Assembly: GCA_030533265.1 (NCBI GenBank)
Contig: JAUNJM010000012.1
Coordinates: 1-32,758 of the forward strand
Source: Ruminococcus sp.
GTDB taxonomy: Bacteria; Bacillota; Clostridia; Oscillospirales; Ruminococcaceae
Direction of reading: 5' to 3'
DNA length: 32,758 nt
Numbering within the stretch: position 1 is the first letter of the stretch; every line of letters starts with the position of its first letter. The position numbers and the translations under genes are program-made. Below the pieces are notes generated by a model that did not search any database, was not told the origin of the DNA, and was given only the letters and a program-made list of their open reading frames with translations. This document shows positions 4,300 through 20,624 of this stretch, piece by piece.

Positions 4300-7002
4300 A
4301 TGATACGGACTATTGATATTAGTGGTGAATGGGGTTTATTTATGGACAAAAGTTGTTCGGCTGTTATGCCTGAACCTGATGATGTCATAAATCTACCCGA
4401 CACCACCTCTCATGCTCAGAAAGGTGAGTATAACAACAATCGTGAAACAGGTTATCTCACTGATACTTACGCTTTTGAAGGTAATGCCTGGTTTTCAAAG
4501 AAAATTCCGCTTGAAGCTTCGCAAAACAAAATCCTGCTATTTCTTGAACGAACAAGAATAACGCATCTTTATGTAAACAGCATTGAGGTCGGCTGTCAGG
4601 AAAGCCTTTGTTCTCCTCATATCTATGATGTAACCTCTTACATTAGAAACGGTATCAACAGATTTGACATCTGTGTTTCAAATGTCGGTTACAAAACAGC
4701 AGGTGGGCATATGACCTCTCCTGACACCCAGACCAACTGGAACGGTATTACAGGCAGGATTGAATTGCAGGAATATGCTATAAACCATCTCACAAATATT
4801 ATGGTTTTCCCGGATGTCAAAAACAAATCCTTCAGAATAACTGCTGACAGTGTCGTCAGTTGCTCCGGACAAGCTGTTATCTCCGCAAAAAACGAATCGC
4901 ATAGTATTGCTCCGCAGATGTTTGAATACTGTAACGGTAAATTGGACGCTGAATACTATCTTGGAGAAAACGCTTTGTTATGGGATGAACATAATCCCAA
5001 CTTATATGAGCTGACCATCGCTGTCGGCAATGATGTGAATGTCATAAACGTCGGTTTGCGTGATTTTAAAGCCTGTGGTGACAAGTTTACTGTCAACGGA
5101 AGAAAAACATTTCTCAGAGGAAAGCATGACGGTATGATATTCCCTGACACAGCCTTTGCTCCGACCGATTTGCAGTCGTGGCTCAGGGTAATGAAAGCTG
5201 CCAGAAGCTATGGCATAAACCACTATCGTTTTCATACCTGCTGTCCTCCTGAGGCTGCTTTTGTTGCTGCCGATATGCTTGGAATATATATGCAACCTGA
5301 ACTGCCTTTCTGGGGTACTGTCACAACCAAGTCTGACGAAAATCACAACGAGAAAGAACAGCAATTTCTGATTGCTGAAGGGTATCGTATACTCCAGACG
5401 TTTGGTAATCATCCATCATTCTGCATGATGTCACTCGGCAACGAGCTTTGGGGTTCAAAGGAAAAGCTGAACGAAATCTTAGGTGCTTACAAGAGTTTTG
5501 ATAACAGGCACTTGTACACTCAGGGTTCAAATAATTTTCAGTGGTGCCCATGTGTTCTGGAAAACGATGATTTTTTCGTTGGAGTAAGACTCTCAAAAAA
5601 TCGGCTTCTTCGTGGTTCCTATGCTATGTGCGATGCTCCACAAGGCCATGTGCAGATAAAAAAGCCTTGTGCTGATAACGATTATGATAATGCTCTGCTT
5701 AGTAATAGCAGTGATAAAATTGACCAGAACAAAGTGCAGATACAGTTTGGTACAGGCGTAAAAACCGTGAATGCTGAAAATTGTGATGACAATTTTTATC
5801 CTGAGATACCAATTATCACACATGAAATCGGACAGTATGAAACGTATCCGAATTTCAATGAGATTGAAAAATACAAGTCCTCGTTAAAGCCTGAAAACTT
5901 TAAGATTTTTCGTGAACGTCTTGCACACAATGGCATGCTGTCGCTTGCTGATGATTTTTTCCAGTGTTCCGGAAAGCTCTCTGTCCAATGCTACAAACAG
6001 GAGCTTGAATCTGTTTTTCGCACCCGCAATATTGCCGGTTTTCAGCTCCTTGACATACAAGATTTCAGTGGACAGGGAACAGCTCTTGTTGGAATTCTGG
6101 ATGCTTTTATGGAAAGTAAAGGTCTGGTGTCTGCAAAGCAGTGGCTTGGATTCTGTTCTGAGGCTGTACTGACAGCAAGATTCAGTTCGTATATTTTTGA
6201 GGAAGGACAGACCTTTTCGGCTGAGATTCTGCTGACTTATTTCGGTAATAACACGGTAAACGGCAAGAATTTTAATTGGAAGATATGTGATGAACAAGGT
6301 ACAGAACTTTTTAACGGCGAGGAGCAGATTCAAGCTCAATCCAACGAAAACTACATTGACATTTGTTGTGTAAATGCGACTTTACCGACGTGCAACAGAC
6401 CGAAAAAACTGATTTTTATATTGAGCTGTGACAGCCTTAAAACTGCCAATTCTTATGAGCTTTACGTTTTTCCGAAAACTGAACATCCTGATTTGAGCGG
6501 ATACTATGTTTTTGACAGCATGAACAAAGATGCTGAAAATGCTCTTTCTGAGGGCAAACGCATACTGCTTGCACGCAAGCCTGATAGCGTAAAAAACAGT
6601 ATAGAGGGAACTTACTGTACTGATTTCTGGTGCTATCCAATGTTCCGTAGTATTTCCGAGAGCATGGGCAAACCTGTGCCTGTCGGCACAATGGGATTAC
6701 TCATTTGCAACACTCATCCTGCGTTGGAGCTTTTTCCATGCGAAAAATTTACGACTCCACAATGGTGGGAGATTGTGACAAATTCATGCTCTGAGATGCT
6801 TGACGATTGCTCTGAGGATAAAAATATTATCATTCAGACAATAGACAACTTTGAACGCAATCATCATCTGGGGCTGATGTATGAATACTTACACGGAAAC
6901 GGTCAGGTTGTTGTACTTAACTGCGATACAGACAAGCTCGCTCAAAGCATTGAGGGCAGACAATTTCTAAAGTCTGTGCTGAATTATATAGACAAAAAAT
7001 AA
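4300..7002 (+). CDS. Glycoside hydrolase family 2-type beta-glycosidase, intracellular
   Basis: 900 residues with no signal peptide. Domain order fits GH2: an N-terminal jelly-roll sugar-binding domain (about 1-165, including NWNGITGRIEL), an immunoglobulin-like domain (about 165-260), and a TIM barrel from FLRGKHDGMIFP (271-282). Catalytic signatures: SLGNELWG with N381-E382 as the acid/base pair, and THEIGQY with E509 as the likely nucleophile. RFH (310-312) also fits the barrel. A C-terminal portion of about 280 residues beyond the barrel carries further beta-rich sequence. The HDG/FHTCCP variation and the long tail make it unlike LacZ or UidA, so the sugar (galactose, glucuronate, mannose or other) cannot be named. 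Start ATG 4300 has GTGAGGA upstream. No transporter or regulator is adjacent; the partner is the ATPase 28 bp upstream. Confidence 0.85.
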   Translation: MIRTIDISGEWGLFMDKSCSAVMPEPDDVINLPDTTSHAQKGEYNNNRETGYLTDTYAFEGNAWFSKKIPLEASQNKILLFLERTRITHLYVNSIEVGCQESLCSPHIYDVTSYIRNGINRFDICVSNVGYKTAGGHMTSPDTQTNWNGITGRIELQEYAINHLTNIMVFPDVKNKSFRITADSVVSCSGQAVISAKNESHSIAPQMFEYCNGKLDAEYYLGENALLWDEHNPNLYELTIAVGNDVNVINVGLRDFKACGDKFTVNGRKTFLRGKHDGMIFPDTAFAPTDLQSWLRVMKAARSYGINHYRFHTCCPPEAAFVAADMLGIYMQPELPFWGTVTTKSDENHNEKEQQFLIAEGYRILQTFGNHPSFCMMSLGNELWGSKEKLNEILGAYKSFDNRHLYTQGSNNFQWCPCVLENDDFFVGVRLSKNRLLRGSYAMCDAPQGHVQIKKPCADNDYDNALLSNSSDKIDQNKVQIQFGTGVKTVNAENCDDNFYPEIPIITHEIGQYETYPNFNEIEKYKSSLKPENFKIFRERLAHNGMLSLADDFFQCSGKLSVQCYKQELESVFRTRNIAGFQLLDIQDFSGQGTALVGILDAFMESKGLVSAKQWLGFCSEAVLTARFSSYIFEEGQTFSAEILLTYFGNNTVNGKNFNWKICDEQGTELFNGEEQIQAQSNENYIDICCVNATLPTCNRPKKLIFILSCDSLKTANSYELYVFPKTEHPDLSGYYVFDSMNKDAENALSEGKRILLARKPDSVKNSIEGTYCTDFWCYPMFRSISESMGKPVPVGTMGLLICNTHPALELFPCEKFTTPQWWEIVTNSCSEMLDDCSEDKNIIIQTIDNFERNHHLGLMYEYLHGNGQVVVLNCDTDKLAQSIEGRQFLKSVLNYIDKK

Positions 7003-16010: not shown

Positions 16011-16805
16011 ATGTCAGATTTGAAATCAAAAAAACGAATAGTCGTAAAACTGGGTACTTCTACCCTTACTCACAGAACAGGCAGGCTCAATATCAGACGT
16101 GTTGAACAGCTTGTCAAAAACCTTGCTGATTTACAGAATGCAGGTCATGAGCTTATTATCGTTTCAAGTGGAGCTATAGGTCTTGGAATGGCAAAACTCG
16201 GGCTTCCTGAAAAACCTAAGGACACTCCGTCCAAACAGGCGTGTGCTGCTGTGGGACAGTGTGAACTGATGTATCTTTACGACAACCTGTTTTCAAACTA
16301 CGGCCTCAACGTTGCACAGATGCTGTTGACAAAGTACATACTCCTTGAGGACAGAAAGGAAAACGTCCAGAACGCACTTGAAAAAATCATTAAGTTTGGC
16401 GTTATCCCTATTGTCAACGAAAACGACACTGTTGCTATTGATGAGCTGGAACTCGAAGTTGGTGAGAATGATTCCCTTGCTGCAACAGTAGCATCACTTG
16501 CAAAAGCCGACTTGCTTATAATCATGTCGGATATTAACGGTCTTTATGACAGCGACCCAAGACAAAATCCTGATGCAAAGCTTATTCCTGTTGTTGAGGA
16601 AATCAACGACAGTATCCGTGCTCTTGCAGGCGGAGCAGGAACTAAGCTCGGTACTGGCGGTATGATAACGAAAATCAATGCTGCTGAAATCGCTATCAAA
16701 AACGGCATTGATATGGTAATCATGAATGGCAAGAATCCTGATAATCTTTATTATCTTTTCGAGAGCGGAAATCTCGGAACACTTTTTAAAGCTAAACAAA
16801 AATAA
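16011..16805 (+). CDS. proB: Glutamate 5-kinase (short form, no PUA domain)
   Basis: 264 residues. First step of proline synthesis: phosphorylates glutamate to gamma-glutamyl phosphate. Seen: VVKLGTSTLT (11-20), VSSGAIGLGMAKLGL, PIVNENDTVAIDELE, NDSLAATVASLAKADLL, SDINGLYDSDPR and GGAGTKLGTGGMITKINAA, all amino-acid-kinase fold signatures of ProB. The C-terminal PUA domain of the E. coli enzyme is absent, as in many Firmicutes short forms; PUA-less enzymes may differ in proline feedback, but that is not visible here. Start follows AGAGGA. proA begins 18 bases after its stop with its own GAAAGGAG site, so the two form an operon. Confidence 0.95.
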   Translation: MSDLKSKKRIVVKLGTSTLTHRTGRLNIRRVEQLVKNLADLQNAGHELIIVSSGAIGLGMAKLGLPEKPKDTPSKQACAAVGQCELMYLYDNLFSNYGLNVAQMLLTKYILLEDRKENVQNALEKIIKFGVIPIVNENDTVAIDELELEVGENDSLAATVASLAKADLLIIMSDINGLYDSDPRQNPDAKLIPVVEEINDSIRALAGGAGTKLGTGGMITKINAAEIAIKNGIDMVIMNGKNPDNLYYLFESGNLGTLFKAKQK

Positions 16806-16823
16806 CGAAAGGAGAAAACTGGT

Positions 16824-18074
16824 ATGAACTATATCGAAGAACTTGCGACTAACGCAAAAGCTTGCCAAACAGAACTTGCAAACGCATCATCTTCTCAGAA
16901 AAATGACGCTCTGCTTGAAATCGCACATATCCTGAGAAAATGCAAAGAAAAAATCATTGAGCAAAATGCTATTGATCTCGAAAATGCAAGAAACCAAGGT
17001 ATGTCACAGTCAATGCAGGACAGACTTGCACTTGATGAAAAACGAATCGACAATATTGCTAATGCCTGCGAAAAACTTACTATGCTTGATGACCCTGTCG
17101 GTCAGATTGAGAGTGGTTCTGTACGTCCAAACGGCATGAGAATTACAAAAGTCTGTGTACCAATGGGTATTATCGGAATCATCTATGAGGCAAGACCAAA
17201 TGTTACAGTTGATGCTGCGGCTCTTTGCCTTAAAAGTGGTAACGCTGTTATCCTTCGTGGTGGTAAAGAGGCTATAAACTCAAATAAAATCCTCGTTGAC
17301 CTTATGCGACAGGCTGTTGAAACATCAGGCTTCTGCCCTGATATTATCCAACTTGTTGAGGACACAGACAGACAGATCGCTGTTGAAATGATGCAGGCAA
17401 ACGGCTATATTGATGTGCTTATCCCACGAGGTGGAGCAAATCTTATCAAGGCTGTTGTACAGTCAGCAACAGTTCCTGTAATCGAAACAGGTACAGGAAA
17501 TTGTCATGTTTATGTTGACTCAACTGCTGACTTGAAGATGGCAGTTGACATCGTTGATAACGGCAAAACACAACGACCATCAGTATGCAACGCTGTCGAG
17601 AGCTGTCTTGTGCACAAGAATGTTGCTGACGATTTTCTGCCGATGCTGAAAAAACGTCTTGATGAGCATAACGTTGAAATCAGAGGCTGTCCGCTTACGA
17701 AAATGATTCTCGGTGACTGCGTTGTACCTGCTGATGAATATGACTATGCAACTGAGTTCCTTGACTATATCATTTCAATCAAGGTTGTTGACAGCTTGGG
17801 AGAGGCGATTGAGCATATCCGTACATATACAACGGGTCACTCGGAATGTATTGTTACTGAAAGTCTTTTTGCTGCCGAGGAATTCCAAAAGCGTGTTGAC
17901 GCTGCTGCTGTTTATGTGAACTGCTCTACCCGTTTTACAGACGGTGAAGAGTTCGGACTCGGTGCAGAAATCGGTATTTCCACTCAGAAGCTCCACGCAA
18001 GAGGTCCGATGGGACTCAAAAATCTTACTACTGTAAAATATCTGATCAATGGCAACGGACAGATTCGATCATAA
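16824..18074 (+). CDS. proA: Gamma-glutamyl phosphate reductase
   Basis: 416 residues, normal ProA length. NADPH-dependent reduction of gamma-glutamyl phosphate to glutamate semialdehyde, the second step of proline synthesis. Seen: VPMGIIGIIYEARPNVT (112-128), the family signature; LRGGKEA (144-150); IPRGG; the catalytic cysteine C255 in QRPSVCNAVES; and the C-terminal LGAEIGISTQKLHARGPMGL stretch. Transcribed directly after proB. No proC is in the window. No clear terminator follows; the next promoter begins at 18134. Confidence 0.96.
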   Translation: MNYIEELATNAKACQTELANASSSQKNDALLEIAHILRKCKEKIIEQNAIDLENARNQGMSQSMQDRLALDEKRIDNIANACEKLTMLDDPVGQIESGSVRPNGMRITKVCVPMGIIGIIYEARPNVTVDAAALCLKSGNAVILRGGKEAINSNKILVDLMRQAVETSGFCPDIIQLVEDTDRQIAVEMMQANGYIDVLIPRGGANLIKAVVQSATVPVIETGTGNCHVYVDSTADLKMAVDIVDNGKTQRPSVCNAVESCLVHKNVADDFLPMLKKRLDEHNVEIRGCPLTKMILGDCVVPADEYDYATEFLDYIISIKVVDSLGEAIEHIRTYTTGHSECIVTESLFAAEEFQKRVDAAAVYVNCSTRFTDGEEFGLGAEIGISTQKLHARGPMGLKNLTTVKYLINGNGQIRS

Positions 18075-18197: not shown

Positions 18198-19070
18198 ATG
18201 AAGAAATTTTTAGCAATCTTACTCGCAGGTATAATGGGAACCACAATGCTTGCATCATGTAATGATTCAGAAGAGGATACTGACAAGGACAACGATTCAT
18301 CACCTGCAACAAAAGTTATAGACATTGACCTGACAGAAGAAGAATATGCTTTTGGTGTTGATAAGGACCAGCCTGAGCTTCTTGAGCAGGTAAACTCATT
18401 TATCGCTGAGATAATGGAAAACGGAAAGTTTGATGAAATATGCAACAAGTATTTCTCTGACGGAACTCCTACTCCAGTAAAATCCGCAACACTTGACGAC
18501 AGCAAGGATCAGCTTGTTGTAGCAACAAATGCAGCTTTTGAACCATTCGAGTATAAAGATGGTGAAAGCTATCTCGGTGTTGATATGGAAATCGCAGCAC
18601 TTTTGGCTGAAAAGCTTGGTAAGGAACTTGTTATCCAGCACATGGACTTTGATGCTGTTTGTCTTTCAGTCGGCCAGCACAAGTGTGACATCGCAATGGC
18701 AGGTCTTACTGTAAGAGAAGACAGAAAAGAACACGTTAATTTCTCAGATTCATACTATAAGGCTTCACAAAGACTTGTTGTAAATGGTAACGATACAACA
18801 TTCGATAAGTGCAAAACTGCTGAAGATGTTGAAAAGATACTTAACGAAAAGGATTCAAGCACAAAGATCGGTGTACAGAATGGTACAACAGGTCAGAAAT
18901 ATGTTCAGGGCGACAAGGAATGGGAATTTGACGGTTTCAAAGCAACCTGCACAGGCTATAAGAACGGCTCTCTTGCAGTTCAGGACATGATCAACGGTAA
19001 CATCGACTATGTTATCATCGACTCTGCTCCTGCTTCATGCATTTCAACAGCAATCAATAAGATAGCATAA
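18198..19070 (+). CDS. Polar amino-acid ABC transporter substrate-binding lipoprotein, apparently circularly permuted
   Basis: 290 residues. ATG at 18198 follows AAAGGA; the ATG at 18180 overlaps that site. Lipoprotein signal with lipobox LASC (C21). Known role: an extracellular SBP_bac_3 protein delivers an amino acid to its permease. Seen: from residue 105 the chain follows the family's normal N-terminus and core (LVVATNAAFEPFEYK, MAGLTVREDRKEHVNFSDSYY, IGVQNGTTGQ) and stops after VIIDSAPASCISTAINKIA, where typical members such as GlnH continue with a final strand and helices. That missing segment (DLTEEEYAFGV...LLEQVN...ENGKFDEICNKYF) lies instead at residues 40-87. The ligand-contacting Arg of REDRK and Asp of IIDSAP are retained. 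Inference: functional, circularly permuted binding protein. The amino-acid specificity is unknown. Confidence 0.9.
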   Translation: MKKFLAILLAGIMGTTMLASCNDSEEDTDKDNDSSPATKVIDIDLTEEEYAFGVDKDQPELLEQVNSFIAEIMENGKFDEICNKYFSDGTPTPVKSATLDDSKDQLVVATNAAFEPFEYKDGESYLGVDMEIAALLAEKLGKELVIQHMDFDAVCLSVGQHKCDIAMAGLTVREDRKEHVNFSDSYYKASQRLVVNGNDTTFDKCKTAEDVEKILNEKDSSTKIGVQNGTTGQKYVQGDKEWEFDGFKATCTGYKNGSLAVQDMINGNIDYVIIDSAPASCISTAINKIA

Positions 19071-19081
19071 CAAATAAAAAC

Positions 19082-19121
19082 AATACAATCCCCCATCTGA
19101 ATCGGTGGGGCATTGTATTTT
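19082..19121 (+). terminator. Hairpin between binding-protein and permease genes (attenuating terminator)
   Basis: A 16-base arm (19082-19097) pairs with 19104-19119 through G-T pairs and one or two imperfections, with a 6-base loop and a short T tail. Probably a partial terminator or 3' stabiliser giving more binding protein than permease, common in ABC operons; that effect is inference. Confidence 0.6.
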
Positions 19122-19135
19122 AAAGGAAAGATTTT

Positions 19136-19846
19136 ATGGGTAATTTTGATAAGAAAATTGATGCATTCTCTAAAGCTTTCTTTGATGGAAACGGCTATAA
19201 AACCGTTATCGAAGGCTTGCAGAACACCATTTTTATTGCTGTTCTGGGACTGTTTATAGGAATAATTATCGGAACTCTCATCGCAACAGTGCGAGTTCTG
19301 CCAAAGTATAAAACATTGCCTAAAGCACTTAACGCTGTTTGCAGTGTTTACGTCGGATTTTTCAGAGGAACACCAATGGTAGTTCAGCTTCTTGTGTTCT
19401 ATTATGTACTTATGCCACTTATCGGCTTGAAAATGCCGTCAGTTACCGTTGCAACATGGGTGTTTGGTTTGAACAGTGGTGCATACATATCCGAAATAAT
19501 GCGTGGAGGCATCATGTCGGTTGACATCGGACAGATGGAAGGCGGACGTTCAGTCGGACTCAGCTATTCGACAACTATGATGAAAATTATTATACCACAA
19601 GCTGTAAAGAATATTCTTCCTTCATTGGGTAATGAGTTTATCGCTCTTATAAAGGAAACATCTGTTGTAAGCTTTATCGGTGCAACAGACCTATATGTAG
19701 CGTTCAACAATATTGGAACCAATAGCTATGAGTTCATGGTACCGTATCTCGTAATGGCTATTATCTATATCATACTCGTACTGCTCATCACACTGCTTAT
19801 CAAATTAATGGAAAGGAGTCTGAGGAAAAGTGATAGAAGTCGTTAA
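19136..19846 (+). CDS. Polar amino-acid ABC transporter permease
   Basis: 236 residues of the HisM/GlnP permease family. Seen: an N-terminal [20 protein letters not shown] segment entering the first membrane helix, [33 protein letters not shown], and the cytosolic EAA loop [15 protein letters not shown] followed by [18 protein letters not shown], which contacts the ATPase. About five membrane helices. It normally works as a homodimer or with a paralogue; only one permease gene is present, so a homodimer is inferred. The ATPase gene begins 17 bases before its stop, so they are translationally coupled. AAGG-type ribosome binding site just after the attenuating hairpin. Confidence 0.93.
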
Positions 19847-20624
19847 TCTTAACAAAAGCTTTGGCTCACTCCATGTTCTAAACAATATAAATACAACTAT
19901 CAAAAAGGGTGAAAAGGTAGTTGTTATAGGACCATCAGGCTCAGGTAAATCTACATTCCTCAGATGTCTTAACTGCATGGAGGACCCGACATCAGGAAGT
20001 ATTATTTTCAACGGTGTTGACATTACTGATATGCGCGTCAATATAAATATCCACCGTCAGAAAATGGGCATGGTGTTCCAGCATTTCAACTTGTTCAACA
20101 ACAAAACTGTAATACAGAATATCATGCTTGCACCTGTTCTTATCGAAAAGAAAAAAAGACGCAAGCTGAAAATTGCAAAGCTCTTAGGTAAAAAACCACA
20201 GGAAGATATAAAGTCTGTAAAACAGATCAAGCAGGACGCAAAAGAACAGGCAATAGCACTTCTGAAAAGGATTGGTCTTGAAGATAAAGCCGATGTTTAC
20301 CCATCAGCTCTTTCAGGTGGACAGAAACAGCGTGTTGCTATCGTGCGTTCACTTGCAATGAACCCTGACGTTATCCTTTTTGATGAACCTACATCAGCTC
20401 TTGACCCTGAAATGGTCGGAGAGGTTCTCAACCTCATGAAAGAACTTGCCAACGACGGTATGACAATGGTAGTTGTCACTCACGAAATGGGCTTTGCACG
20501 AGAGGTTGCATCACGAGTTATCTTCATGGACGGTGGATCTATTACAGAAGAAGCTGATCCCGAAGAATTTTTCACCAATCCGAAAAGTCCAAGACTAAAA
20601 GAATTTCTCTCAAAGGTACTGTAA
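19830..20624 (+). CDS. Polar amino-acid ABC transporter ATP-binding protein
   Basis: 264 residues from a GTG start at 19830; GAAAGGAG at 19811-19818 is 11 bases upstream. GlnQ/HisP family. Seen: Walker A GPSGSGKS (34-41), Q-loop MVFQHFNLF (81-89), signature LSGGQKQR (161-168), Walker B VILFDEP (181-187) and H-loop H218. Compared with the usual ~240 residues it carries an insertion of about 25-30 residues, very Lys/Arg-rich, at roughly 106-139 in the helical subdomain. Energises the upstream binding protein and permease. The GNAT gene starts 2 bases after its stop. Confidence 0.94.

Follow-up and report, generated by a model that had tools for sequence, protein, structure and literature searches.

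The window analyzed here is a 32,758-nucleotide stretch of DNA from Ruminococcus sp. At 18198-19067 on its plus strand, it encodes a lipoprotein of 290 amino acids, P0001, whose parts are listed in Table 1 together with the flanking sites and the two transport genes that follow. The P0001 open reading frame (ORF) measures 300 aa from stop to stop. The promoter-like site in front of it is weak evidence, since six such sites occur in the region, which is not above the number in shuffled sequences (mean 7.8). The hairpin behind it could result in more receptor than permease being made. Directly upstream of P0001 lie proB and proA (window 16011-18074). We discarded this pair as a hint to the function of P0001, as neither gene was found in the 34 tabulated loci, several of which include little upstream DNA.

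Table 1. Features of the P0001 locus (coordinates in the window; S, N and C-lobe as defined in the text)
Feature	Position	Strand	Basis or remark
Promoter-like site TTGAAA-17-TATAAT upstream of the P0001 gene	18134..18162	+	11/12 consensus matches
P0001, apparently circularly permuted SBP_bac_3 amino-acid-binding lipoprotein, 290 aa + stop, order S-N-L	18198..19070	+	Intact ORF
Lipoprotein signal peptide and lipobox LASC, predicted anchor Cys21	18198..18260	+	Read off sequence; Cys21 invariant in 14/14 rows of alignment A1
S block, residues 40-87, equivalent in a normal SBP to the final strand of the C-lobe, the second hinge crossing and the C-terminal helices	18315..18458	+	Pfam positions 98-131; GlnBP mapping
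New S-to-N linker, ~17-18 aa, with invariant positions; joins old C terminus to old N terminus	18459..18509	+	
N block, core of the N-lobe plus first hinge crossing (GlnBP ~5-95)	18510..18782	+	N-HMM match E 2e-41
C-lobe (GlnBP ~96-171); its end is the point at which a normal protein runs on into the S block	18783..19067	+	L-HMM match 18867-19034, E 2e-26
Hairpin with T-rich tail in the gap between the genes for P0001 and the permease; may be a partial terminator	19091..19120	+	2 such sites seen against 2.3 expected in shuffles
Polar amino-acid ABC permease, His/Glu/Gln/Arg family	19136..19846	+	NCBIfam TIGR01726, 79.5 bits (cut-off 42.2)
Polar amino-acid ABC ATPase, GlnQ-like	19830..20624	+	Best NCBIfam match GlnQ, E 1e-91, under its cut-off

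We refer to the N-lobe core as N, to the C-lobe as L and to the C-terminal segment as S. Ordinary proteins have the order N-L-S, and P0001 has the order S-N-L. Its membership in PF00497 (SBP_bac_3) is clear, with 107.4 bits against a gathering score of 26.4, over two swapped stretches. The two pieces were matched separately by the SBP_bac_3 profile, a comparison proposed in the original prediction: positions 98-131 correspond to residues 44-101, a piece of 58 aa (E 5e-7), and positions 1-98 to residues 95-290 (106-217; E 1e-22). Positions 98-131 thus stand ahead of positions 1-98, P0001 fails to follow the N-to-C order of the family in one stretch, and only a rotation restores this order. This is in agreement with the earlier proposal that residues 40-87 resemble the segment that normally ends SBP_bac_3 proteins, which was also recovered by our S profile (18321-18455, E 4e-23), and that residues 105-290 resemble the normal N terminus and core and halt where the last segment should begin. 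Since the chain ends at GlnBP ~171, where the N-terminal block resumes, nothing appears to be missing or doubled. Both hinge crossings are present in the P0001 sequence as mapped on GlnBP. A phmmer search against solved structures again gave swapped matches, residues 105-279 of P0001 aligning with chain positions 11-171 of AncQR (4zv1) and residues 36-87 with positions 181-232.

A six-frame scan of the window found a single block of each kind (N, L and S), and all three lie within the P0001 ORF; outside this ORF, just one chance-level S match was obtained (E 0.97, 10336-10277, minus strand). Past residue 290, no frame of the window encodes a C-terminal segment, so the second copy that could have betrayed a sequencing error is absent, and we rejected a frameshift or a lost downstream segment. 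We also rejected a tandem two-SBP protein, given that the stop-to-stop ORF has one of each block. We then scored rearranged sequences against a profile of 221 positions built from 98 ordinary N-L-S ORFs. P0001 reached 162.2 bits as encoded and 200.3 bits when rearranged to N-L-S, in a single match covering positions 2-220 of 221, and the four remaining block orders gave 115-118 bits. N-L-S was likewise the best-scoring order for all nine other permuted proteins tried (9/9), among which both permuted orders were represented. The swapped Pfam and PDB matches, this rotation test, the 13 relatives of the same order and the exclusively cyclic orders of the ORFs described below all bear out the proposed circular permutation, and the reading of P0001 as a permuted SBP_bac_3 protein appears strongly supported.

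Our scan of genome contigs gave 56 loci, 14 of which (L035-L048) encode full-length proteins of S-N-L order. Judged by their titles, these 14 loci come from genomic scaffolds, MAGs or isolates that are uncultured and belong to metagenome projects, with no named cultured strain among the sources. No relative turned up among the viral contigs scanned, and viral spread thus gets no support. P0001 and 13 of the relatives were aligned (A1, 14 rows; L044, a near copy of L043, was omitted). The 13 proteins are 63-74% identical to P0001 and share its block order. Throughout A1, the lipobox cysteine and many positions in S, in the linker and in N are invariant, and the linker has a single length. More broadly, a loose lipobox pattern was present in 29/29 distinct S-N-L ORFs. 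In three pairwise comparisons of S, of the linker and of N-L, pN ranged from 0.07 to 0.27 and pS from 0.44 to 1.01, values that we quote because dS was saturated in most comparisons. For the linker, the excess was modest (P0001 versus L035, pS 0.44 against pN 0.22 over 18 codons). Two further P0001-type loci, both fragmentary, lie outside the 20-locus tabulation used below. One of them, L013, is at a contig edge; the other, L009 (G040), has S in one ORF and N-L in another, in different reading frames, so that this copy is either broken or mis-sequenced.

The linkers between S and N measure 18-32 aa, with medians of 18 in S-N-L and 21 in L-S-N proteins. Such lengths would permit the exchange of S blocks between molecules: S would then pair with the N-lobe of a second molecule, in a domain-swapped dimer or chain, and P0001 would be an oligomer rather than a re-cut monomer. 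However, a linker of fixed length with invariant residues across the 14 rows of A1, and of similar length in other permuted clades, fits an intramolecular joint better. In addition, TpMglB-2, a known SBP permutant, was consistent with a monomer (PMC4990184). We therefore regard the oligomer as unlikely and retain a re-cut monomer as the reading of P0001.

We next turned to the ligand site and the transport role. The best NCBIfam matches of P0001 are amino-acid SBPs. Against TIGR01096 (cut-off 256.35), P0001 scored 111.2, the S-N-L protein L107 126.4 and the ordinary protein L135 134.6. Because L135 also falls under the cut-off, we dropped the idea that order-aware models under-annotate permuted genes. 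All chain parts and the ligand-site framework of Escherichia coli GlnBP (GlnH, 1ggg/1wdn) align with P0001. GlnBP differs in having the order N-L-S and both ends on its large domain, and it is a periplasmic protein devoid of a lipid anchor. In GlnBP numbering, this framework consists of Gly68, Thr70, Arg75 and Asp157, the last of which we take to be a ligand-contact residue, and it is invariant in 14/14 rows of A1. The same holds for the positions equivalent to 11 GlnBP ligand residues, a list taken in part from PMC7400645, which gives Gly68, Thr70 and Arg75 as ligand contacts. Six of these 11 positions carry GlnBP's own residue in P0001, including Arg75 and Asp157. The other five (D10, K115, G119, S120 and H156) are replaced by N, Q, T, G and I, respectively, indicating that the ligand of P0001 may not be glutamine. 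Finally, PAAT permease and ATPase genes lie directly downstream of the receptor gene in 20/20 tabulated P0001-type loci, as expected for a polar amino-acid importer.

With five ligand residues replaced and a ligand that may differ, one could also imagine that P0001 no longer serves transport but works as a sensor or decoy, and that its permutation is tolerated for this reason. This is very unlikely in our view: permease and ATPase genes follow in every tabulated locus, the ligand-site positions are invariant, and L107 and L135, opposite in order, have permeases that are 81% identical. We thus consider P0001 to be very probably a working membrane-anchored receptor of a polar amino-acid ABC importer, encoded by a circularly permuted gene. 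Its chain would adopt the usual two-lobed SBP fold and retain both hinge crossings, and a short lipid tether would hold the C-lobe instead of the N-lobe. In the usual way, the ligand would be caught between the lobes and then handed on to the neighboring permease and ATPase.

To see how common such orders are, the N, L and S profiles were run over all ORFs of at least 90 aa in loci L001-L189, with L190-L199 outside this block scan. One of each block was found in 172 ORFs, a number that includes duplicates of P0001 and of a few others: 101 were N-L-S, 38 L-S-N and 33 S-N-L, and none of the 172 had a non-cyclic order. These proportions are biased towards kin, as the survey was seeded with permuted queries, and the scan is blind to cuts very near the normal ends. 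Counting distinct genes with full-length blocks, we obtained 96 N-L-S, 35 L-S-N and 29 S-N-L. ORFs without a full set comprised five S-N, four N-L, three N-S and four with a single block. L170 and L176 are L-S-N-L genes, cut inside L, and L164 and L165 are tandem SBP arrays. In L153, L154 and L155, the L profile gave no match, and alignment was used to assign them as permuted.

One genome from each of 31 families of the class, our own genome among these 31, was surveyed with PF00497: 26 gave a match and, with some partial matches left unclassified, at least five held a permuted gene (G000, G302, G306, G313 and G325; eight genes, among them L153, L154 and L155). Within the family of our genome, at least 66 genes in at least 64 of 297 genomes were colinear with a permuted L-S-N query over at least 200 of its 262 residues, counted among the matches listed rather than by block scan and with the query itself as one of the 66. 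Two of these genomes, G117 and G185, consist of a single contig. In the sample of the phylum (249 genomes), the permuted single-SBP genes from outside the class among the fetched loci are L161, L170 and L176, the last two forming a pair; further colinear matches, in G765 and G789, lie outside the fetched set. That P0001 stems from an error of assembly or sequencing, or is what remains of a tandem gene for two SBPs after loss of its other halves, might be suggested by kin that are mainly MAGs, by the tandem SBP genes of this group (L164 and L165) and by the split relative L009, but S-N-L order in 14 contigs of the genome-contig scan, the L-S-N-colinear genes of the family, two of them in single-contig genomes, and the absence of a second block from the window leave it hardly any credibility. 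The same-order kin and the own-family matches also rule out, for the family, a chimeric MAG as the source of the order.

We then built a tree from 99 of the 160 distinct full-length-block genes (192 columns), after thinning at 80% identity for permuted and 68% for ordinary proteins. Excluded were L140 and L148, which failed the block-length filter; L153, L154, L155, L170 and L176, in which the L block was undetected or split; the partial L009, L013, L020 and L088; L141, L144, L156, L157 and L159; and the tandem L164 and L165. The tree of the 99 proteins requires nine order changes, and its starred branches force at least four per permuted order. Either permuted order as one clade was recovered in 0% of 200 bootstrap trees. 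Furthermore, AU tests rejected a single clade for S-N-L (p 1e-46), for L-S-N (p 4e-71) and for all permuted rows (p 9e-5), and we accordingly rejected a single ancestral permutation forming one clade. Indeed, the clade of P0001 itself includes the L-S-N members L011 and L050. Block order has thus changed repeatedly in related proteins, in counts that do not separate gains from reversions to the ordinary order. Circular permutation in nature tends to be regarded as a rare accident; here, one abundant family appears to have switched its chain order several times.

An instructive case is provided by L107 (S-N-L) and L135 (N-L-S; genome G305, same class), which are supported sisters (100/98). The two proteins are ~78% identical overall, with 78.6% identity in N-L and 75.5% in S, and their permeases are 81.3% identical. 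Against TIGR01096, L135 aligns in one stretch (residues 9-247 to positions 4-250) and L107 in two. The likeness of the permeases speaks against a gross change in how the SBP would face its permease, an effect that the original prediction expected for P0001, and this pair argues that docking would survive the swap. L107 and L135 thus offer a ready-made natural experiment on whether folding, ligand capture and docking depend on the order of the chain and the place of the anchor.

To locate the cuts, 17 representatives were mapped onto GlnBP by alignment. The new ends fell at GlnBP ~96-98 in L015, L025, L091, L101 and L161, at ~107 in L011, L050 and L153, at ~126 in L170 and L176, and at ~167-171 in P0001, L010, L106, L107, L151, L154 and L155. 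The small domain of GlnBP spans residues 90-180, with hinges at 85-89 and 181-185, according to PMC7400645. By these limits, all four cut sites lie in the C-lobe and keep both hinge crossings. The strand order suggests that the new ends would sit at the distal end of the C-lobe, as a mirror image of the normal ends on the N-lobe. The changed attachment point of the lipid anchor that had been predicted for P0001 follows from its cut site and, with all cuts in the C-lobe, the anchor would move from the N-lobe to the C-lobe wherever a lipobox is present. Among proteins with a lipobox-like pattern (81 N-L-S, 33 L-S-N and 29 S-N-L), the tether from the lipobox to the first recognized block was short whatever the order, with a median of 21 residues in N-L-S, 19 in L-S-N and 14 in S-N-L. 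L154 and L155, both from G313, are related permuted genes, of which one has a lipobox and the other an apparent transmembrane anchor.

We tentatively suggest, while giving it somewhat less than even chances, that the amino-acid SBPs of Clostridia and their kin are a recurrent hot spot of permutation, with four C-lobe cut sites, in which selection acts on the lobe that is tethered. If true, selection would bear on which lobe is tethered, through opening, ligand release or docking, beyond the tolerance of the fold to cuts. C-lobe anchoring may be favored by selection, or cuts in the C-lobe may merely be better tolerated.

Within the open-licence literature, the only natural permutant SBP that we could identify is TpMglB-2 (Tp0684) of Treponema pallidum, a circularly permuted lipoprotein termed "Cluster Bc" (PMC4990184). 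According to this report, the protein binds ligand and changes conformation upon binding, and the same topology is noted in Gram-positive and gut bacteria. However, TpMglB-2 is a glucose-binding protein of Cluster B (Type I) in which the N-lobe was re-cut and a fourth hinge crossing added (PMC4990184), whereas P0001 and its kin are SBP_bac_3 proteins for amino acids, with C-lobe cuts at four positions and an order that changed repeatedly. P0001 does not show the Cluster B sugar core of Cluster Bc; in Pfam, it matches SBP_bac_3 and, weakly, a glutamate-receptor domain. The passage of PMC7701253 that mentions circular permutation concerns an ATP-grasp protein. No natural permutant was found reported for SBP_bac_3 in the open-licence literature, which does not imply absence from print. 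The authors of the TpMglB-2 study considered its topology a possible adaptation to tethering and saw no obvious advantage in it (PMC4990184). Repeated cases in which the anchor has moved to the same lobe make this idea testable.

As for the origin of the P0001 gene, a tandem duplication in frame may have come first, after which the first copy lost its front and the second its back. In the phmmer search, residues 50-239 of P0001 were colinear with 6h30, a tandem GlnPQ protein, over the joint between its SBD1 and SBD2, so the expected kind of intermediate does exist. The S-linker-N join is common to both, although GlnPQ has two complete domains and P0001 the parts of only one. In the family of P0001 itself, we found no tandem intermediate, and the duplication is thus a route that we infer. 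The 779-aa ORF of L165 (G715), a tandem array of SBP blocks, is the kind of intermediate that such a route needs.

Other arrangements of these genes were also encountered. In L014, L019, L022 and L098, L-S-N SBPs are fused to the front of the permease, in proteins of ~500-540 aa, and L014 has a hydrophobic helix at its start in place of a lipobox. In L020, such an L-S-N SBP-permease fusion is interrupted by TAG. Finally, beside the permuted SBP gene of L050, a 389-aa ORF (4854-6020, plus strand) combines a lipoprotein signal, an apparent stand-alone C-lobe (the L block alone was found) and a fused permease.
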